Both the position numbers and the translations under genes were made by a program. The notes below the pieces were generated by a model. It made no database searches. It worked only from the letters and a program-made list of their open reading frames with translations, and was not told where the DNA came from. This document shows positions 42,447-47,393 of a stretch of 64,000 nt of DNA, piece by piece. Position 1 is the first letter of the stretch. Each line of letters opens with the position of its first letter. The stretch spans positions 806,001 to 870,000 of the forward strand of contig NZ_JACHBY010000001.1 of NCBI RefSeq assembly GCF_014200495.1. Direction: 5' to 3'. This DNA comes from Mucilaginibacter geliditolerans (GTDB lineage: Bacteria > Bacteroidota > Bacteroidia > Sphingobacteriales > Sphingobacteriaceae).

Positions 42447-42455
42447 ATATTTTTG

Positions 42456-42486
42456 ACAGGGTTTGCAATGATATTGCAAACCCTGT
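42456..42486 (+). terminator. Intrinsic terminator after YceI
   Basis: Perfect 14-bp arms acagggtttgcaat and attgcaaaccctgt around a 3-base loop, followed by tctttt. It lies between the two complementary halves of a word array. Confidence 0.9.
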
Positions 42487-42563
42487 TCTTTTGCTATAAA
42501 CAAACAAATATTAGTAAATATCCTTTTAACTTCGACCATTATTATTAAATGTTCGTATTAAAG

Positions 42564-42604
42564 TAAGTCCGAAATCGAACATCTTAATTCCGAAATACAC
42601 GAAC
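42564..42604. repeat. Word array, right half
   Basis: Words gtccgaaatcgaacatc and ttccgaaatacacgaac reach right up to the start codon of the YciO-type gene, so they form its leader region. Confidence 0.8.
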
Positions 42605-43335: not shown

Positions 43336-44106
43336 TTACGGCCTTATGGCTTTCACAAACGCAGGTATCTTCTCTAAATAATTATCCTCAGCCAGTAACT
43401 TAACAAACGCACTGCCTACAATAGCACCGCTGGCATATTCGCATGCTTTTGTGAAGGTAGCGTTGTTTGAGATCCCAAAACCAATAATAGCAGGGTTGTT
43501 TAATTCCATAGCCTTAATACGCTTGTAGTAATCCTCAATATTGGTTGATACATTTAAGCTGCCCCCAGTTATGGATGATGATGAAAGCAGGTAAATAAAG
43601 CTATTGCTCAGCTCATCAATCTTACGGATACGATCTGCTGATGTTTGCGGTGTAACCAGGAATATATTGCTCAGGTTATTATCCAAAAAGTATTTGGAAT
43701 ACAGGGCTTCGTACTCATACATCGGCAAATCGGGCACTATAATGCCGTCTACTCCTACTTCCGAAGCCGTTTTACAGAATTTTTCTATACCGTATTGCAG
43801 TATAGGGTTAACATAACCCATTAGCAGTATAGGGATGTTTACACGTTTACGCAGGTCTTTCAACTGCTCAAATAAAACGTGCACGGTCATGCCATTTTGT
43901 AATGCCGTTTCTGAACTATGCTGGATAGTAGGTCCATCAGCCACCGGATCAGAATACGGGAAACCGATCTCCAGGAAATCGGCGCCGGCTTTTTCCAATG
44001 CCTCGGCAATATCAACAGTAGTATTCAGTTCAGGATAACCCGCCGTATAGTAGATAGATAGCAGGTTAGTTTTTTTTGTATGGAAAAGGTTTTGTAAGCG
44101 GTTCAT
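43336..44106 (-). CDS. trpA: Tryptophan synthase alpha chain
   Basis: 256 residues. Cleaves indole-3-glycerol phosphate to indole and GAP, with the catalytic Glu in DFLEIGFPYSDPVADGPT and the Asp just after. Loop 6 area and SSSSITGG are as in the family. It works in a complex with TrpB, whose gene ends 79 bases upstream. The gap holds a 22-bp inverted word array. It is the last gene of the trpDFBA operon under the attenuator at 47110-47229. Confidence 0.96.
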   Translation of the reverse strand: MNRLQNLFHTKKTNLLSIYYTAGYPELNTTVDIAEALEKAGADFLEIGFPYSDPVADGPTIQHSSETALQNGMTVHVLFEQLKDLRKRVNIPILLMGYVNPILQYGIEKFCKTASEVGVDGIIVPDLPMYEYEALYSKYFLDNNLSNIFLVTPQTSADRIRKIDELSNSFIYLLSSSSITGGSLNVSTNIEDYYKRIKAMELNNPAIIGFGISNNATFTKACEYASGAIVGSAFVKLLAEDNYLEKIPAFVKAIRP

Positions 44107-44185: not shown

Positions 44186-45367
44186 TTAAAATCCGAAATA
44201 TTTTATATAAGTCTCTAAATCTTTATCTCCCCTGCCTGATATGCAGATTATTACATTGTCACTGGCTTTAAACTGCATTTTTTCAAGCTGCGCTAAAGCA
44301 TGGGCTGTTTCAATTGCTGGTATAATTCCTTCCAGCTGTGAGCAAAGCAAGCCTGCCTGTAAGGCCTTATCATCTGTAATGCTTACGTATTGTGCACGGT
44401 TTATTTTATATAGATGTGCGTGCTGCGGGCCTATGCCCGGGTAATCCAATCCTGCCGAAACAGAATATGGTTCAACAACCTGCCCGTCATCAGTCTGCAT
44501 CAATATAGTACGACTACCGTGCAATACGCCTTCCCTACCCAAAAATGTAGTAGCTGCAGAATGCCCGCTATCTACACCTTTACCTGCGGCTTCAACTGCT
44601 ACCAGCCTAACACTTTCATTATCCAAAAAATGATAGAACATACCCATAGCATTACTACCACCACCTACACAAGCCATCACATATTCGGGCAATTCCTTAC
44701 CGGTATGCTCCAGCAATTGTCTTTTGGCTTCCAGCGATATAATGGATTGGAACCTCGCAACCATATCCGGGTATGGATAAGGCCCAACTACCGACCCAAT
44801 AATGTAATGTGTATCAACAGGATTAGCAATCCAATCGCGCATGGCCTCATTAGTAGCGTCCTTAAGCGTTTTACTGCCCGATGTAGCTGAAACCACTTTA
44901 GCACCCAACATTTTCATACGGGCCACATTTGGCGCCTGGCGCGCCATATCAATTTCACCCATGTAAACAATACATTCAAGCCCCATTAAAGCGCAAACCG
45001 TAGCAGTAGCTACGCCGTGCTGACCTGCACCTGTTTCAGCAATAATGCGTTTTTTGCCTAAGCGCTGGGCCAAAAGTATCTGGCCTATGGCGTTATTTAT
45101 TTTGTGCGAACCTGTATGGTTCAGATCCTCACGTTTAAAAAATATGTTTGCGCCATATTTTTCAGAATATCTTTTAGCATGATATAATGGCGAAGGCCTG
45201 CCAACATAATCCTTTAATAACTGGTCGAATTCAGCTCTAAAACCAGCATCATTAATAATGTTTAAGTACTGCTGCCTCAATTCCTCAACATTGGGGTAAA
45301 GCATCTCTGGTATGTATGCTCCGCCAAAATCGCCATAATAGCCTAATTCGTTAACTCCGTATTTCAT
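44186..45367 (-). CDS. trpB: Tryptophan synthase beta chain
   Basis: 393 residues from ATG 45367 (MKYGVNELGYYGDFGGAYIPE). The PLP lysine is in HTGSHKINNAIGQ. The phosphate-binding GGGSNAMG and the C-terminal region GRGDKDLETY follow. It condenses indole and serine to tryptophan. Its start overlaps the trpF stop by 17 bases, indicating coupled translation. Confidence 0.96.
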   Translation of the reverse strand: MKYGVNELGYYGDFGGAYIPEMLYPNVEELRQQYLNIINDAGFRAEFDQLLKDYVGRPSPLYHAKRYSEKYGANIFFKREDLNHTGSHKINNAIGQILLAQRLGKKRIIAETGAGQHGVATATVCALMGLECIVYMGEIDMARQAPNVARMKMLGAKVVSATSGSKTLKDATNEAMRDWIANPVDTHYIIGSVVGPYPYPDMVARFQSIISLEAKRQLLEHTGKELPEYVMACVGGGSNAMGMFYHFLDNESVRLVAVEAAGKGVDSGHSAATTFLGREGVLHGSRTILMQTDDGQVVEPYSVSAGLDYPGIGPQHAHLYKINRAQYVSITDDKALQAGLLCSQLEGIIPAIETAHALAQLEKMQFKASDNVIICISGRGDKDLETYIKYFGF

Positions 45368-45992
45368 TTGTATCAAATTGTTTAATGGCAGCAAATGCCA
45401 CTTTTAATTTCTCTATATTTTTCATTCCCGGTGCAGTTTCAAAGCGACTATTCAAGTCGACTCCATAAAACTGCGGGTGTGTGATCTTTTTTATCTCATC
45501 TAGGTTATCCAGGCTGATACCCCCACTCAAAAAGAAAGGCACATCCAGTTGGTATTTATCTAATATGCTCCAATCGAACGTTTTACCCGAACCACCGTGG
45601 ATATCCGTTTTAGTATCGAACAAGAAGAAATCAACCTTATCAATATAATCATTCAGCTGCTCAAAATCAAAGCTATCGTTTAGTCCGAAAGCCTTTAATA
45701 TTGTTACCTTACCTTTAAATTCAGCGCAAAAATCGGCGCTTTCATTACCGTGCAACTGTACGGCATCAAACTTAAACTGATCTATAAGCGCATCAATATT
45801 TTCAGCAGTTTCATTAACAAACACCCCTGTTTTGATAATGGACGAAGGTAAAGCATTTAAAATTTCCACCGGCACATCTGCAACAAAGCGTGGCGATGGG
45901 CCATAGAAAATAAAGCCCATGTAATCGGGTGTTAACCCAGCCACCTGTTCAATATTCTGTGGATCTCTTAAACCGCAAACCTTAATTTTCAT
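45351..45992 (-). CDS. trpF: Phosphoribosylanthranilate isomerase
   Basis: 213 residues. The catalytic Cys is in KVCGLRDPQNIEQV and the Asp lies in VDLNSRFETAPGMKN. Third step of Trp synthesis. The protein is not fused to TrpC, which is the next enzyme of the pathway and is missing from this operon. It follows trpD by 3 bases. Confidence 0.95.
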   Translation of the reverse strand: MKIKVCGLRDPQNIEQVAGLTPDYMGFIFYGPSPRFVADVPVEILNALPSSIIKTGVFVNETAENIDALIDQFKFDAVQLHGNESADFCAEFKGKVTILKAFGLNDSFDFEQLNDYIDKVDFFLFDTKTDIHGGSGKTFDWSILDKYQLDVPFFLSGGISLDNLDEIKKITHPQFYGVDLNSRFETAPGMKNIEKLKVAFAAIKQFDTNEIRS

Positions 45993-45995
45993 ACT

Positions 45996-46985
45996 TTAAT
46001 TATTGATCAAAGTTTTAAAACTGTTCAATGCTTTTTTAGCAGTTAATGCTTCCTCTGCTTCATAAAAACAATCAGCAAAGCTTTTTTCGGGGCAAATTGT
46101 TTTAATAGCTAATGCCGCATTGCATAAAACCACGTTCGCTTGCGCGGCGGTAGCTTCAACATTAAGCACCTTCATAAATATATCAGCCGACTCACTCACG
46201 GTATGCCCACCGGTTATTTCAGCCGGGTTCAGTTTGGCAAAGCCTAAACTCTCAACAGTATTTATTTTTTCACCATCAGCGCTGAATGTTTTAAAATCGC
46301 AGGTTAGCGAAACTTCGTCATAACCTTCAAGCGCATTTACGATGGTATATTTCTTATCGGATTTTTGATAAAGATAGGCAAATACACGTGCAAGCTCCAG
46401 GTTATACACCCCTACCAGTTGATTTTCAGGCTTTGCCGGGTTAACTAATGGGCCGAGCATGTTAAAAAATGTCTTCACCCCCAACTCGCGGCGTATAGGC
46501 GCTACGGTTTTCATAGCCGGATGGAACAATGGCGCATGCAGAAAGCAGATGTTAGCCTTATCAATGCTATGTCTGAGCTTATCAGCATCATTTGTAAACT
46601 GATAGCCTAAAAACTCTATCACGTTTGACGATCCGCAACCTGATGATACCCCATAATTACCATGTTTAGCCACTTTATAACCTGCGCCTGCCACTACAAA
46701 TGATGCCAGGGTAGATATATTAAAAGTATCCTTACCATCGCCACCGGTACCGCAAAGATCTATCATTTCGTCTGTTTCCAAATCGATGTTAAGGCAAAGC
46801 TCCAGCATGGCATCGCGGAAGCCCTCCAGTTCGTTAACTGTAATGCTGCGCATGCAATAGGCCGTCATAAACGCCGCCATTTGCGAGTTGTTGTATTTAC
46901 CCTGTGCAATATTTATCAAAATCTCTTTTGACTGCTCCCTGGTAAATGTTTTATTTTCAAAAAGATGGTTTAATATCTGCTTCAT
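45996..46985 (-). CDS. trpD: Anthranilate phosphoribosyltransferase
   Basis: 329 residues. The PRPP-binding signature is LCGTGGDGKDTFNISTLASFVVAGAG, followed by KHGNYGVSSGCGSSNVIEFLG. It joins anthranilate and PRPP. It is the first structural gene of the operon; 124 bases of leader separate it from the attenuator's terminator, most of which is a REP-like element. Confidence 0.95.
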   Translation of the reverse strand: MKQILNHLFENKTFTREQSKEILINIAQGKYNNSQMAAFMTAYCMRSITVNELEGFRDAMLELCLNIDLETDEMIDLCGTGGDGKDTFNISTLASFVVAGAGYKVAKHGNYGVSSGCGSSNVIEFLGYQFTNDADKLRHSIDKANICFLHAPLFHPAMKTVAPIRRELGVKTFFNMLGPLVNPAKPENQLVGVYNLELARVFAYLYQKSDKKYTIVNALEGYDEVSLTCDFKTFSADGEKINTVESLGFAKLNPAEITGGHTVSESADIFMKVLNVEATAAQANVVLCNAALAIKTICPEKSFADCFYEAEEALTAKKALNSFKTLINN

Positions 46986-47001
46986 AATTTAAAATTCTGT
47001 T

Positions 47002-47095
47002 TGTCATTTCGAACGAGAGTGAGAAATCTTCTGCAACCTGCTCGTCGGTTTGCATTTTGCAGAAGATTTCTCCTCGTACCTCGTTCGAAATGACA
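47002..47095. repeat. REP-like element, family 2, between attenuator and trpD
   Basis: Left tgtcatttcgaacgagagtg, then agaaatcttctgcaa; right ttgcagaagatttctcctcg, then tacctcgttcgaaatgaca. The stem has one internal asymmetry. It lies on the trp mRNA between the terminator and trpD. Confidence 0.85.
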
Positions 47096-47109
47096 TCGCA
47101 TAATAGTAC

Positions 47110-47138
47110 AAAAAAAGGGTTACCATGTGGCAACCCTT
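47110..47138 (-). terminator. trp attenuator terminator (3:4 hairpin)
   Basis: On the minus strand AAGGGUUGCC (47138-47129) pairs with GGUAACCCUU (47124-47115), 10 pairs with one G-U, loop ACAU, then a run of seven U. It is placed 44 bases after the leader-peptide stop codon. The left arm also pairs with upstream segment 2 (see the leader region feature). Confidence 0.92.
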
Positions 47139-47193
47139 CTTCTGTATATGTTAAAAAAACAAAAATGGAATTGCCTTACGATTACTCGTTAAG
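47129..47193 (-). promoter_or_regulatory. trp attenuator pause and antiterminator hairpins (1:2 and 2:3)
   Basis: Minus-strand segment CUUAACGA (47193-47186) can pair with UCGUAAG (47181-47175), 7 pairs with one bulged A and a GUAA loop; it covers the end of the leader peptide. The alternative is GGCAAUUC (47175-47168) with GGGUUGCC (47136-47129), 8 pairs including two G-U, which consumes the 5' arm of the terminator. The two structures share segment 2 and are mutually exclusive with the terminator in the standard attenuation order. Confidence 0.88.
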
Positions 47194-47229
47194 CCACCAC
47201 CAATTGTTGTTTAATATTTTCACTGTCAT
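47182..47229 (-). CDS. trpL: trp leader peptide
   Basis: 15-codon open frame, MTVKILNNNWWWLNE, from ATG 47229 to TAA 47182. Three consecutive TGG codons (47202-47194) sit just before the 1:2 pause hairpin, where a ribosome starved for Trp-tRNA would stall and free segment 2 to form the antiterminator. No other function is expected of the peptide. Confidence 0.93.
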   Translation of the reverse strand: MTVKILNNNWWWLNE

Positions 47230-47239
47230 TATTATGCGA

Positions 47240-47271
47240 CAAATATGGAAATAGTTTTTACTAAAAGCAAA
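47240..47271 (-). promoter_or_regulatory. Putative trp promoter
   Basis: On the minus strand TTTG (47271-47268) and CATATTTG (47247-47240) lie 20 bases apart, close to the Bacteroidota pattern TTTG-N19..21-TAnnTTTG with one mismatch. Transcription would start only about 5-7 bases before the leader ATG. Confidence 0.5.
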
Positions 47272-47291
47272 CAGAATGATAAATTTACGGT

Positions 47292-47393
47292 GTAAGTTGA
47301 TTGAATGAGTAGTTTATTGGGTTGATTAGGTTATTATCCAAACTTAACAACTACTCACTTAATCAACCAATCAACTTAATCAACCAGCAAAAC
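47292..47393. repeat. Word array upstream of the Kir channel gene
   Basis: Left: gttgattgaatgagtagttt and gggttgattaggtt; right: acaactactcacttaatcaa and ccaatcaacttaatcaacc. The two halves are approximate complements. The right half reaches almost to the ATG at 47394. Confidence 0.85.

Follow-up and report, generated by a model that had tools for sequence, protein, structure and literature searches.

Gene content and leader region of the trpDFBA unit

The window, by which we mean the whole 64-kb stretch of DNA that was analysed, carries four tryptophan biosynthesis genes on its minus strand, in the order trpD-trpF-trpB-trpA behind a terminator. Anthranilate phosphoribosyltransferase (trpD, 45996..46985) matches TIGR01245 with 298.7 bits (cut-off 199.05), tryptophan synthase beta (trpB, 44186..45394) matches TIGR00263 with 584.7 bits (cut-off 392.45) and tryptophan synthase alpha (trpA, 43336..44106) matches TIGR00262 with 236.2 bits (cut-off 102.35). 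Phosphoribosylanthranilate isomerase (trpF, 45351..45992) was assigned from PF00697 (133.2 bits, cut-off 22.7), the NCBIfam models matching below their cut-offs. The gene on the other side of the leader region runs divergently, and a domain search returned inward-rectifier potassium channel domains for its product. All elements of the leader region described below are on the minus strand.

Between the terminator and trpD lies an imperfect palindromic repeat (GTCATTTCGAACGAGG..., 47002..47095) that is not part of the attenuator. It returns 72 matches in its own genome, many of which are one place matched on both strands. Some relatives have other repeats at this position, for example CCCCCGGCCCCCTGAAGGGGGAG, and in two loci (L064 and L133) hundreds of bases of repeated palindromes separate the attenuator from trpD, the leader open reading frame (ORF) beginning at about -540 and -413, respectively. 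Insertion of repeats seems to be tolerated at this position behind the terminator.

The Bacteroidota promoter consensus is TTTG / TAnnTTTG. Reading the sequence ahead of the leader ORF revealed a -33-like TTTG element of this type (47268..47271) located 20 bases ahead of a -7-like element, CATATTTG (47240..47247), which ends 10 bases before the leader ATG. Among the best 80 of 225 trpD loci from relatives, all 80 contain a [TC]AnnTTTG box at most 45 bases upstream of the leader start, and in 64 of the 79 that have an ATG the box ends 7–12 bases before it. If this consensus applies and fixes the start site, the transcripts would be almost leaderless. A box 10 bases before the ATG would also leave little room for a Shine-Dalgarno site; translation in Bacteroidota starts largely without such sites.

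A short reading frame with three consecutive tryptophan codons

The leader ORF, MTVKILNNNWWWLNE, was read from the sequence and from the alignment of genus members. It occupies 47229..47182 and comprises 15 codons, from an ATG at 47229 to a TAA stop codon at 47184-47182. Three consecutive Trp codons (TGG TGG TGG, 47202-47194), which a previous sequence-only reading had pointed out, are indeed present and fall within arm 1 of the longer form of the 1:2 hairpin described below. The second and third of these codons occupy alignment columns 39-44 and are invariant in the 36 leaders of the genus. The peptide core NNNWWWLNE is almost fixed across the genus, the first leader codons vary, and the third positions of the Asn codons ahead of WWW swap almost only between C and T, a pattern that fits a translated frame. 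The start codon is uncertain: in the two relatives whose TrpD is most similar (97 and 98% identity), ATA stands in place of the window's ATG, yet both keep a GTG two codons later. This GTG (47223-47221) may therefore be the start in the window as well.

Two short ORFs with WWW occur in the window on both strands together, and only the trpD leader ORF has a terminator no more than 140 bases behind its stop codon. Sixty Markov-1 random windows contained 0.033 WWW ORFs per window, none of them with a terminator. The combination of a Trp-rich ORF and a terminator thus exceeds the chance expectation, and its conservation is stronger evidence than this count.

Mutually exclusive pairings and an intrinsic terminator

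Four segments downstream of the first leader codons can form alternative helices. Segment 1 (UGGUGGUGGCUUAACGA, 47186..47202) was delimited by the consensus fold, in which 96.5% of cells are paired in the genus, and by the family alignment. Consensus and single-sequence folds place segment 2 (UCGUAAGGCAAUUCCA, 47166..47181) as the partner of either segment 1 or segment 3. Folds and pair counts define segment 3 (AAGGGTTGCC = AAGGGUUGCC, 47129..47138), which pairs with segment 2 to give an antiterminator or with segment 4 to give a terminator. Segment 4 (GGUAACCCUU) and its U-run (47110..47124) complete the intrinsic terminator, whose 3:4 helix has 99.2% of cells paired in the genus. The mutually exclusive 1:2, 2:3 and 3:4 pairings proposed earlier from the letters alone are thus present at this place on the minus strand. 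The region combines a Trp-codon ORF upstream of trp genes, three exclusive pairings and a terminator before trpD, which is the anatomy of an attenuator.

Two details of the earlier description need adjustment. The terminator hairpin (47138-47115; 3' arm GGTAACCCTT at 47124-47115) runs into a T-run (47116-47110) that ends ahead of trpD. This run was said to supply seven U behind the terminator; it does contain seven T, two of which close the stem, leaving five unpaired U. The 1:2 pairing exists as described in a register of 7 pairs, and it can also be longer, with 13 pairs and the Trp codons within arm 1. In the RNAalifold consensus of 36 leaders the UGG codons of arm 1 pair with GGCAAUUCCA of segment 2, and in single-sequence folds the codons ahead of the Trp codons extend the 1:2 pairing further; in the fold of the window's leader the Asn codons pair with a U-rich stretch. 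The 13-pair helix has 96.5% of cells paired in the genus, compared with 25-59% when slid. The 7-pair register has 96.7% of cells paired, two of its pairs being broken in 2 and 5 of 35 distinct sequences. Because the two registers pair in nearly equal fractions of cells, either may apply in the lower stem.

Within the genus, changes on both sides of a pair occur at 3 of the 11 pairs of the 3:4 helix, above all 500 shuffles. The 1:2 helix has one both-sided change, which is not clearly above the shuffles (86 of 500 as high). The 2:3 helix has 96.8% of cells paired, compared with 20-61% when slid; it lacks both-sided changes, and 368 to 500 of its 500 shuffles reached the same level. The genus is too uniform to prove 1:2 and 2:3, and at this level both rest on complementarity and the slid control.

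The leader is conserved in front of trpD across the family

The own genus of the window (g1) has members mostly titled Mucilaginibacter among the best 80 of 225 loci, and the window's TrpD shares 97% identity with that of an M. xinganensis metagenome-assembled genome (L159). We located trpD in 36 of 37 g1 genomes, the remaining genome being 58% complete. A leader ORF precedes trpD at all 36 loci, with WWW in 34 and WW in 2, and each of these leaders has a terminator in the genus alignment (A1). The best 80 of 225 loci, a second set that overlaps the first, all have a Trp leader (WWW in 77, WW in 3), and a narrow terminator pattern was found in 71 of them. Of the nine pattern-negative loci, two (L196 and L211) duplicate the contig stretches of L017 and L019, in which terminators are seen. 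Loss of the WWW codons in related species had been named as an outcome that would contradict an attenuator; the Trp codons are instead kept at 36 of 36 and 80 of 80 loci. The suggestion that three Trp codons in a row make for a stricter Trp density than in the E. coli leader does not hold as a rule, given the WW variants at 2 of 36 genus loci and 3 of 80 loci of the second set.

The arrangement extends beyond the genus. Of 49 genomes from other genera of the family, examined in sets of 20 and 29, 44 have a Trp-rich leader in front of trpD, with the Trp forms WWW, WW, WRW, LWLW and WCW. From one genus to another the peptide is free to vary except at its Trp codons, and the pairings persist. The proposal of a trpDFBA attenuator in a member of the Bacteroidota is therefore supported, with the amendment that it is found across the family and is not peculiar to this genome. 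The leader was not found in 4 of the 49 genomes, namely L049, L063 and L131 of genus g26 and L154 of g32 (a 76% complete genome); L139 was not assessable, its gene start not having been located. The trpD leader peptide was found in none of the three g26 genomes, and trp regulation may have changed in that genus. By eye, L049 and L063 still show a terminator.

Eleven trpD loci of the class from outside the family (L037-L047) gave no match up to E = 1 to the covariance model described below, in upstream sequence that was limited in places (206 bases in L041, 782 in L040). Three of them (L038, L045 and L046) have a short ORF with WW or WxW within 800 bases of trpD. We considered these ORFs as leaders and take them to be chance occurrences, the model matching none of the 11 loci.

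Covariation supports the 1:2 and 3:4 helices

A covariance model holding the 1:2 and 3:4 helices (R1) was built from the 36 genus leaders. It matched 43 of the 44 trpD leaders from other genera, at 28.0-91.9 bits. The exception, L143, has a leader ORF and scored 19.3 bits; it was left out of the family alignment (A3). Other places in the window reach 28.9 bits with R1, the highest being a second-best match at 42453-42569 (minus strand) that we take as AT-rich noise. E-values of R1 are too optimistic in AT-rich DNA, and matches near 30 bits were not counted as homologues. Three leaders (L132, L145 and L148) at 28.0-28.6 bits are accordingly not above noise by score, yet they lie at the right place before trpD.

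In the 43 leaders 88.7% of cells pair, and 18 of the 24 stem pairs show both-sided changes, so the covarying pairs that had been proposed as a check on the attenuator are present in related species. The cells with both-sided changes number 70, compared with 18.9 +/- 3.6 after shuffling (0 of 500 as high) and with a maximum of 24 after sliding. Fitting of the alignment to R1 favours pairing, and one pair (columns 43-122) is mostly unpaired. A MAFFT alignment of mixed genera (A2) was excluded from the counts because its gaps shift the stems. Family covariation thus supports 1:2 and 3:4; outside the genus, 2:3 is known from folds alone.

Folding of individual leaders gave a similar picture. Pairings around the stop codon include ACAACA with UGUUGU, AUAAAG with CUUUAU and AUAGC with GCUGU in different family leaders. 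Energy z-scores of the 1:2 region in the 43 leaders have a mean of -1.08, with 25 of 43 below -1 and 4 of 43 below -2. Judged by eye, all 18 displayed leaders from other genera fold a 1:2-type hairpin while segment 3 has yet to be transcribed, and in the same 18 a stall on the Trp codons lets segment 3 pair with segment 2.

Relation to catalogued leader RNAs

At the gathering threshold no Rfam family matches anywhere in the window. A permissive search placed RF01692, Bacteroid-trp, at 47249-47129 (model positions 1-131 of 131) with 39.8 bits, below its cut-off of 49. Its E-value of 0.0022 for 341 bases is not decisive by itself because unrelated models do about as well or better in that search: one for an sRNA gives 0.0036, and one for a miRNA gives 2.9e-06 on the adjacent palindromic repeat. 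A genome-wide search at E <= 0.001 gave no RF01692 match in the window's own genome. The same threshold applied to 81 family genomes, some of them without trpD, gave 10 matches, 4 of them over the cut-off. Eight of the 10 lie directly before trpD, with two over the cut-off (G122, 49.4 bits; G120, 49.6 bits) and others just under it (G129, 48.0 bits, and G028, 46.5 bits, both of the same genus as the window; and four more). The best family match (G074:C41:7443-7568, 53.7 bits) is on a contig other than that of trpD (C92). The window leader resembles Bacteroid-trp, and its assignment there is carried by the better scores of homologous trpD leaders, G122 and G120 foremost among them. The strongest RF01692 matches found precede a different gene, trpE, in another bacterial family, f26 (59.5-88.5 bits at 5 of the 20 trpE loci scanned).

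The kind is known and the RNA family already named. Rfam describes RF01692 as 'Bacteroidete tryptophan peptide leader RNA', and Table 1 of Weinberg et al. 2010 (PMC2864571) marks Bacteroid-trp, in Bacteroidetes, with 'y' both as an RNA and as cis-regulatory. Among the matches listed in a literature search, the titles and the opening parts of the abstracts do not treat trp attenuation in Bacteroidota. What is added here is this copy, the family-wide distribution, the covariation and the paired trpE attenuator described below.

The window leader also shares its layout with the E. coli Trp_leader (RF00513), which has tandem Trp codons in arm 1 and a 3:4 terminator. In E. coli the stop codon lies between arms 1 and 2, and likewise in the window leader. 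The sequences differ, and RF00513 is not matched by the window up to E = 10. Three trpD leaders from three genera, among 20 loci of other genera, do score with RF00513 below its cut-off of 41 (L059, 34.0 bits; L066, 27.6 bits; L065, 24.7 bits). Unlike in E. coli, a promoter-like box lies 10 bases before the ATG of the window leader.

A model for attenuation at the trpDFBA leader

Very probably, this element is a transcription attenuator of the classical, ribosome-mediated type that controls trpDFBA. RNA polymerase would start a few bases ahead of the leader ORF, with a ribosome translating the leader close behind. When charged Trp-tRNA is scarce the ribosome would stall on the UGG codons and block arm 1; segment 2 would then pair with segment 3, the terminator could not form and trpDFBA would be transcribed. 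With ample Trp the ribosome would reach the stop codon between arms 1 and 2 and cover segment 2, leaving segment 3 to pair with segment 4 and transcription to end in the U-run. If the leader were not translated, formation of the 1:2 hairpin would be expected, to the advantage of the terminator.

We computed these states with a masking model that folds only the RNA left free by the ribosome and registers pairing between segment 3 and bases anywhere upstream of it. When a Trp codon occupies the A site, the mean probability of upstream pairing of segment 3 is 0.70-0.99 over the 36 leaders. When the stop codon occupies that site, the probability is 0.07-0.62, below the Trp-stall value in each of the 36. 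The enterobacterial logic that had been put forward, in which a stall at Trp codons favours the antiterminator, thus agrees with the model in 36 of 36 leaders, as a computed result. For the window's own leader the values are 0.80 for the Trp stall, 0.53 with no ribosome and 0.42 at the stop codon, a contrast that is modest in this model. Stalls at any other sense codon of this leader give 0.64-0.80; Trp specificity must therefore come from the codons themselves. In untranslated RNA the upstream pairing is at least 0.65 in 11 of the 36 leaders, and the untranslated state is therefore not uniformly terminating in the masking model. At equilibrium the 3:4 terminator wins (0.85-0.97 in the four leaders displayed), so 2:3 must form before segment 4 is made, during transcription. 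In textbook attenuation the decision is likewise taken during transcription.

The same terminator could in principle answer to a different Trp sensor, with the Trp-rich ORF being incidental. T-boxes, Trp-binding riboswitches and TRAP-like proteins all use leader terminators, and the 3:4 helix alone would serve any of them. Against such routes, no Rfam family reaches its gathering score in the whole window, and no T-box is among the matches up to E = 10 at 46980-47320. An incidental ORF also fits poorly with the retention of WW or WWW in 36 of 36 genus leaders though the first leader codons vary, and with the WRW, LWLW and WCW forms of other genera, which keep the Trp codons and change the residues between them. 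We therefore consider it highly unlikely that Trp is sensed in one of these other ways. Less probable still, to the point of being negligible, is a constitutive terminator of the upstream region next to a frame that is Trp-rich by chance. A terminator alone is common, but no pair of ORF and terminator arose in 60 random windows, the 80-locus set and the family covariation already contradict a chance arrangement, and a Trp-rich ORF precedes trpE as well, at 53 of 57 loci.

A further possibility is that the leader peptide itself acts. In cis it could halt its own ribosome when free tryptophan is present, as TnaC does, or it could act in trans after its release. The latter is reported for peTrpL of Sinorhizobium (PMC7298713). 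The nearly fixed NNNWWWLNE core in the genus is what one would expect of an active peptide, but between genera all of the peptide except the Trp codons is free to change, with the pairings preserved, and in the fold of the window leader the Asn codons of that core pair with the U-rich stretch. Action of the peptide is accordingly very improbable.

The trpE half of the pathway has its own leader

In the window's own genome trpE, trpG and trpC form a second unit elsewhere (trpEGC), separate from trpDFBA. TrpE was identified from its Pfam domains and its neighbours, NCBIfam TrpE models matching below their cut-offs; a shorter TrpE paralogue is encoded at C1:1352443 of the same genome. Reading the sequence ahead of trpE revealed a second Trp leader, MIKINPINRWWHQSKFWQPDAI, with a hairpin and a T-run behind it (contig G000:C4, L071:3785-3653, minus strand). 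A TAAATTTG box stands in front of this leader, and the trpD leader also has a promoter-like box. Each half of the split trp pathway therefore has its own Trp leader in this genome. The trpE leader does not match RF01692.

A leader ORF with WW or WxW lies at most 400 bases before trpE in 53 of 57 loci, by a criterion that has no shuffle control and in a sample that is not random, as it includes the 30 top-scoring of 102 genomes that had a match. The fractions are 28 of 31 loci in the family and 25 of 26 outside it, and 51 of the 53 leaders have a detected terminator behind them. By this criterion no leader ORF was found at three g26 loci and at L128. In the g26 trpE leaders (L079-L081) only scattered single Trp codons are seen by eye.

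The R1 model, built from trpD leaders, reaches at most 23.9 bits on the 31 trpE loci of the own family (L073-L103), within the noise that extends to 28.9 bits. Ten trpE leaders from families f26 and f27 (L106, L108-L113, L119, L120 and L122) score 40.6-53.0 bits with it. The trpD leader is thus closer to trpE leaders from other families than to the one before trpE in its own. This likeness is compatible with the trpD unit having inherited an old leader, but part of it may stem from the AT-rich composition that these leaders share and from the invariant WWW. We also considered a recent duplication linking the trpD and trpE leaders of one genome, which is not supported. Over 20 genomes, the likeness before the Trp codons is 0.36 within a genome and 0.37 between genera, and 3329 of 5000 permutations were as high.

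Discussion

One scenario for these observations, which we offer tentatively and regard as possible rather than probable, is that splitting of the trp pathway left both halves with an attenuator of their own. The trpD copy would have kept the ancestral Bacteroid-trp form, and the core of the family's trpE leader would have changed beyond recognition, giving one pathway two separately tuned Trp sensors, both on almost leaderless transcripts that lack Shine-Dalgarno sites.

The findings suggest that attenuation of trp genes by the textbook route occurs widely in a phylum in which it is rarely studied. The Rfam model sees few of the copies (10 of 81 family genomes, under stricter filters), whereas looking directly before trpD finds the leader in 44 of 49 genomes of other genera. 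A pathway that is split between two units, each with its attenuator, would provide a natural test of separate sensors that are differently tuned.
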